From NCBI GenBank assembly GCA_012521395.1, contig JAAYML010000127.1, forward strand, positions 38,949 through 102,948: a DNA stretch of 64,000 nucleotides, written 5' to 3'. Position 1 is the stretch's first letter, and each line of letters opens with the position of its first letter. Shown here piece by piece: positions 10,733-11,931 of this stretch. The stretch is from Candidatus Epulonipiscium sp. Lineage in GTDB: Bacteria > Bacillota > Clostridia > Lachnospirales > Defluviitaleaceae. The notes beneath the pieces were generated by a model. The model worked only from the letters and a program-made list of their open reading frames with translations. It made no database searches and had not been told where the DNA came from. Both the position numbers and the translations under genes were made by a program.

Positions 10733-10924
10733 ATGGCAAAATGTGATGTTTGTCAAAAAGGTGTGCACTTTGGTATACAACTGAGTCACTCTCATAGAAG
10801 AAGTAATAAACAATGGAAACCTAACGTTAAAAAAGTGAAGGTATTATTAGACAACGGGACCAAAAAAAGAATGAATGTTTGTACAAGATGCTTACGTTCT
10901 AATCTTGTTACCCGTGCCAACTAA
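10733..10924 (+). CDS. rpmB: 50S ribosomal protein L28
   Basis: MAKCDVCQKGVHFGIQLSHSHRRSNKQWKPN. Confidence 0.97.
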   Translation: MAKCDVCQKGVHFGIQLSHSHRRSNKQWKPNVKKVKVLLDNGTKKRMNVCTRCLRSNLVTRAN

Positions 10925-10930
10925 TTATTA

Positions 10931-10961
10931 AAACAAAGTTCAGAAGAACTTTGTTTTTTTT
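10931..10961. terminator. Intrinsic terminator of rpmB
   Basis: AAACAAAGTTC-AGAA-GAACTTTGTTT + T tract. Confidence 0.85.
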
Positions 10962-11037
10962 ATTCGTTTTTTATACCCCATATTTTTCTAATCAGCTTAG
11001 ATAATATTTTTGGCATTTTAACTACCATTATCCTCAT
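10960..11037 (-). CDS. spoVM: Stage V sporulation protein M (25 aa), absent from supplied ORF track
   Basis: Reverse translation MRIMVVKMPKILSKLIRKIWGIKNE*; GAGGTG RBS 6 nt upstream; amphipathic basic helix; rpmB-spoVM-thiN synteny as in Bacillus. Confidence 0.85.
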   Translation of the reverse strand: MRIMVVKMPKILSKLIRKIWGIKNE

Positions 11038-11050
11038 TTTTTTCACCTCA

Positions 11051-11194
11051 CTAATATTTTTTAAAAAAGATATATCCTAAAAATAAAAATAGTATGGCAG
11101 TAATAACAACAAAACTAGTCCCCGGAAGAAGAAACACCAAAAGCATACCCATTCCAACTGAAAAAAGAAATAAGCCAAGTATCCTGCTCTTCAT
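11051..11194 (-). CDS. 47-aa predicted membrane microprotein
   Basis: Reverse translation MKSRILGLFLFSVGMGMLLVFLLPGTSFVVITAILFLFLGYIFFKKY*; two hydrophobic segments; between thiN and spoVM. Confidence 0.6.
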   Translation of the reverse strand: MKSRILGLFLFSVGMGMLLVFLLPGTSFVVITAILFLFLGYIFFKKY

Positions 11195-11258
11195 ATCCTT
11201 TCTCTTCCCTTAATTTTTTCATTATATTTTATTCATACTTATAAAAATGTGTGCAAAA

Positions 11259-11285
11259 AAAGGTCTCAATCGATTTGAGACCTTT
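11259..11285 (-). terminator. Intrinsic terminator of thiN (overlaps its stop codon)
   Basis: AAAGGTCTCAA-TCGAT-TTGAGACCTTT; T7 tract on minus strand. Confidence 0.8.
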
Positions 11286-11931
11286 ACTCTTTTAATACTT
11301 GAATGACTAAAAGAAAACCCGCCTTTATGCAGATGCTTGCCGTAGATGCAGTCATCACATTACTGATCCCATATGAACTGCCACTGTATAAGACCGCTTC
11401 ATTCAAAGGATATTCTAAACCTTTTGTCGTAACACCATGGACTTCTAAAGAAAAAGGAATAAGTGAGACAAAATTACCCTTTTCTCCCTTAAGGGTAATT
11501 TCTTTATCAATTAAATAAATCTTCTGAGTTGAAGTTATAAGTGAAATAGCTATCTTCTTTTGTAAACCATAATATAATAAATGGATATTCGCTAAAGTAT
11601 GGTCCAGCCGGTTTCCAGTTCCACCAATAATATAAATTTCCCGGGGATTTTTTTCTATGGCAATATCCAGGGCAAGTTCCGTATCGGTTTTATCTTTTTT
11701 GGAAGGAAAACTTTTAAAAATGATATTTTTATCTTGATAATAATGCATATCTTCCTTTGAAGCAGAATCAAAATCGCCTACGATTAAATCCGGAACTAAG
11801 GACATTGCCCTTGCATGGCTTATACCCCTGTCTGCACAGATAATATAATCTGAATCATCCGCATAACTTCTGGCAAAAGAATAATCCTCAATATCTCCGC
11901 CGGCAATAATTAATATTTTCACTTTTTCCAT
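11284..11931 (-). CDS. thiN: Thiamine pyrophosphokinase
   Basis: ADRGISHA, LIVGDFDS, DKTDTELALD motifs. Confidence 0.95.
   Translation of the reverse strand: MEKVKILIIAGGDIEDYSFARSYADDSDYIICADRGISHARAMSLVPDLIVGDFDSASKEDMHYYQDKNIIFKSFPSKKDKTDTELALDIAIEKNPREIYIIGGTGNRLDHTLANIHLLYYGLQKKIAISLITSTQKIYLIDKEITLKGEKGNFVSLIPFSLEVHGVTTKGLEYPLNEAVLYSGSSYGISNVMTASTASICIKAGFLLVIQVLKE

Follow-up and report, generated by a model that had tools for sequence, protein, structure and literature searches.

A 25-codon open reading frame on the minus strand of this DNA is, with a probability of about 0.96, a functional orthologue of spoVM. It lies at positions 10960-11037 of the window, by which we mean the whole stretch of 64,000 nucleotides that was analysed. 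A first-pass annotation had already named the frame as spoVM, and that identification is borne out by a curated family match above its cut-off, a profile match to a solved SpoVM structure, retention of Pro9, synteny, purifying selection and the presence of SpoIVA in the same genome. The gene is a slightly diverged copy of a known family, with no sign of a new mechanism, and is unsurprising in a genome that carries sporulation genes.

The spoVM reading frame and its identity

Read directly from the sequence, the frame opens with an ATG at 11037 and closes with a TAA at 10962-10960; the coordinates and the translation that the first-pass annotation gave for it were both exact. The well-spaced GAGGTG ribosome-binding site that it had described was likewise found, at 11049-11044. 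The features of the locus are as follows.

10733..10924, plus strand: rpmB (ribosomal protein L28), the convergent neighbour; PF00830, E 2.3e-19 (Pfam and NCBIfam)
10930..10957, no strand assigned: strong terminator hairpin in the gap that separates spoVM from convergent rpmB; stem of 12 bp, -13.4 kcal/mol, z -4.4; terminator-like scan match
10960..11037, minus strand: spoVM, 25 aa, MRIMVVKMPKILSKLIRKIWGIKNE; NF033436 match, orthologues, pN/pS
11044..11049, minus strand: ribosome-binding site GAGGTG, 6 nt 5' of the spoVM ATG, from the sequence
11051..11194, minus strand: gene for a 47-aa hydrophobic microprotein; conserved in relatives, pN/pS 0.49
11221..11253, minus strand: promoter-like block CACA-N15-GAATAAAATATAAT, 26 nt 5' of the 47-aa frame; conserved
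11284..11931, minus strand: thiN (thiamine pyrophosphokinase), the upstream neighbour; TIGR01378, E 8.4e-60 (Pfam and NCBIfam)

GAGGTG is invariant across six aligned relatives of spoVM. A longer product starting at the in-frame GTG (11046) was considered and rejected; that codon falls inside the ribosome-binding site, and the ATG is thus the likely start. Short frames are plentiful here, with 72 of at least 20 aa overlapping the surrounding 6 kb AT-rich stretch. A length of 20-30 codons therefore means little, and the spoVM call rests on homology, conservation and coding constraint.

The comparison with the SpoVM family model that the first-pass annotation had proposed gave 32.1 bits against a cut-off of 31 (NCBIfam NF033436, SpoVM_broad, an equivalog model), with positions 1-25 of 26 covered. 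In a six-frame scan of the genome the same model scored the gene at 29.7 bits, just under the cut-off. It matched 16 of the 17 SpoVM sequences that we aligned. A Pfam search with the 25-aa frame returned no match, nor did a single-sequence search of the PDB; after the latter, a profile built from 17 sequences (the frame and its relatives) retrieved the solved SpoVM structure 2MVH at E 4.9e-7, followed by 2MVJ, the chain of which has Ala at position 9.

None of the 17 aligned sequences departs from Pro9 or Val5, and V5, P9, K10 and G21 are invariant in a 10-sequence alignment. Pro9 alone is conserved throughout a published alignment that spans Bacilli and Clostridia, and it is needed to recognise positive curvature (PMC5607322). 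The same study notes that Ile6 of B. subtilis SpoVM is genetically linked to SpoIVA residue Gly486 (PMC5607322). Here position 6 is Val, a conservative change at a position where relatives have Ile, Val or Phe. The hydrophobic moment of the peptide exceeds that of 97.5% of shuffles (p 0.024) and its net charge is +6; the peptide would form an amphipathic helix. It shares with B. subtilis SpoVM (2MVH; NF033436) its length, Pro9, Lys7, Lys10, a basic residue at position 2, the amphipathic pattern and a SpoIVA partner. It differs in its low identity to the PDB chain, in Val6 for Ile6 and Ser13 for Gly13, and in the 47-aa frame directly upstream; the sequence is indeed diverged from the Bacillus form, as had been remarked.

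Conservation, coding constraint and the SpoIVA partner

A search of seven further genomes of the family found an orthologue of spoVM in every one, and in each the gene has thiN upstream and, downstream, rpmB on the opposite strand and then asp23. The first-pass annotation had placed spoVM between rpmB and thiN. The gap and the adjacency to rpmB stand; direct adjacency to thiN does not, because the conserved small frame at 11051-11194 intervenes. In Bacillus, too, spoVM lies between thiN and rpmB.

The first-pass annotation had made its claim hinge on coding constraint as well as on conservation in relatives. In an alignment of seven sequences, pS is 0.64 and pN 0.18 (pN/pS 0.28), and differences are most frequent at third codon positions (0.47, about 2.5-3 times the 0.19 and 0.15 at first and second positions). 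The other two forward frames contain 31 and 11 stops. The pair formed by this gene and its counterpart in one relative (G001) gives p 0.19 when taken alone, with too few substitutions in so short a gene for significance. The gene is under purifying selection.

A full-length SpoIVA is encoded in the same genome (TIGR02836, E 8e-245, 812 bits against a cut-off of 460). Its gene is intact and its product has 492 residues, of which residue 486 is Gly if the protein is collinear with B. subtilis SpoIVA. Co-occurrence of the two proteins was assessed with our own alignments, because NF033436 alone is too noisy in whole genomes, where its matches appear even in non-spore-forming controls. Across the class sample, SpoIVA is present in 77 of the 81 genomes with a SpoVM match (E 1e-3 or better), compared with 219 of all 293 genomes (Fisher p 6e-8, phylogeny ignored). 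The association is weak in the order sample (17 of 18 SpoVM-match genomes, p 0.04, phylogeny again ignored), because the first profile has a low yield of genomes there.

Two other readings of the frame were weighed. Since short frames are common in this stretch, and since the SpoVM profile weakly matches unrelated cationic peptides (E 0.08-0.3), the frame could be a chance one or could encode some other cationic amphipathic peptide with no more than a likeness to SpoVM. Against this, every relative has the frame at the orthologous position and with Pro9, the peptide matches a curated family and its coding sequence is constrained, and we regard such a coincidence as scarcely credible. Slightly less remote, and still very improbable, is a spoVM that has decayed or lost its function as the lineage gives up sporulation. 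Ser13 and Val6 do depart from positions conserved in relatives, and the assembly is just 85% complete, but the frame and its ribosome-binding site are intact, pN/pS is low and SpoIVA is full length. A functional spoVM thus remains by far the preferred reading.

In other genomes of the order, spoIVA itself is interrupted. In three of these (G026, G063 and G098), and probably in two more (G039 and G106), DNA that carries a large serine recombinase breaks into the gene near residue 405-412. In G063 (L151, 264-1625 and 8089-9963), the ATPase and middle domains of SpoIVA stop near residue 411 and are followed by some 6.5 kb of other genes; the C-terminal domain forms an in-frame fusion with the end of the recombinase. 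The same fusion is found in G098 (L153:611-1873 and L154:2032-3489), where a long distance on a single contig separates the pieces. The split in G026 (L150, 352-1614, 5798-7381 and 8384-8740) is similar, with the recombinase separate. Skin-type elements are known in sigK, spsM and gerE, and the split spoIVA looks like such an intervening element, which would need excision to rebuild the gene. A literature search found no case of a skin-type interruption of spoIVA.

A hydrophobic microprotein encoded upstream of spoVM

The 47-aa frame, a more unusual feature than spoVM and one that the first-pass annotation had passed over, lies between thiN and spoVM, on the same strand as spoVM, and stops 13 bases 5' of the spoVM ATG. 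The predicted protein is hydrophobic along almost its entire length, and searches of Pfam and NCBIfam with it and its relatives assigned no family. Matches of relatives to NfeD, ExoD, YhaL and others were weak and inconsistent among members, and we set them aside as the generic likeness of transmembrane segments. The gene is under moderate constraint (pN/pS 0.49), with the second codon position the slowest. Among 19 relatives of the protein, G7, G14, G16, M17 and G40 never vary, and P24 hardly does.

With a threshold of E 1e-3, relatives were detected in 60 of the 146 genomes sampled from the order and in 38 of the 293 from the class; 58 and 36 of these genomes, respectively, also encode SpoIVA. 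A few of the weakest matches in the class sample fall inside long frames and may be false. The relatives are spread over many clostridial families, often immediately 5' of spoVM. In the order sample the gene is present in 16 of the 18 genomes with a SpoVM match at E 1e-3, and the coordinates place the two genes side by side on the same strand. At 11 loci of the class sample, from several families, a Pro9-bearing SpoVM-like frame opens 15-39 bases downstream of the first base of the 47-aa stop codon. At other loci (L074, L076 and L077), the 47-aa gene occupies the thiN-rpmB gap and no SpoVM bearing Pro9 is recognisable there, a possible case of spoVM loss or extreme divergence. That the gene stays at these loci hints at a role of its own.

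The 47-aa gene and spoVM are probably on one transcript. In the promoter-like block upstream, CACA and GAATA are invariant and their 15-base spacing is fixed in seven genomes. The block resembles the minus-10 element ATAnnnTA of the mother-cell sigma factors (E/K) and is possibly of sigma-E or sigma-K type. A sigma-70 promoter upstream of the 47-aa frame was unsupported; the scan did no better than chance. At the other end, the hairpin at 10930-10957 probably terminates both spoVM and rpmB.

The arrangement recalls that in C. difficile, where spoVM is co-transcribed under sigma-E behind CD25622, a gene for a 50-aa protein of unknown function (PMC5607322). The likeness is one of position and size only: a protein of about 50 aa encoded directly upstream of spoVM, near rpmB. 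Co-transcription and sigma-E control belong to the C. difficile system; here the first is probable and the second possible. Further, CD25622 has been described as mainly confined to the Peptostreptococcaceae (PMC5607322), whereas the 47-aa gene has relatives in many families. The authors of that study judged CD25622 to be of little impact because its mutants resembled spoVM mutants; the insertions in it were probably polar on spoVM (PMC5607322).

We tentatively propose, at somewhat less than even odds, that the 47-aa membrane protein is an old, widespread and uncharacterised clostridial sporulation protein that is co-expressed with SpoVM and acts with it, or in parallel to it, at the forespore membrane. 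Such a protein would persist in some lineages with no recognisable spoVM in the thiN-rpmB gap, and it could account in part for the lower dependence of C. difficile on SpoVM compared with Bacillus.

SpoVM and the spore coat in this lineage

The outer forespore membrane of B. subtilis is convex, and SpoVM both marks it and tethers SpoIVA to it. From the features shared with that protein, we infer that this copy would have the same role. On the B. subtilis model, the 25-aa amphipathic peptide would be produced in the mother cell during sporulation and would insert at the convex outer surface of the forespore, lying parallel to its membrane, with Pro9 serving the recognition of positive curvature. 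SpoVM would there bind and anchor SpoIVA, which would polymerise as the basement layer of the coat. The importance of SpoVM in this organism may be modest, because spoVM mutants of C. difficile lose only about 3-4 fold in heat resistance (PMC5607322).

These results give a secure annotation to a gene that is missed when frames are filtered by size, and they support the SpoVM-SpoIVA pair of the coat basement for this lineage. The 47-aa gene emerges as a candidate for an unstudied clostridial spore-envelope factor. If its product and CD25622 were homologous, the pairing of such a protein with spoVM would be much wider than has been reported.
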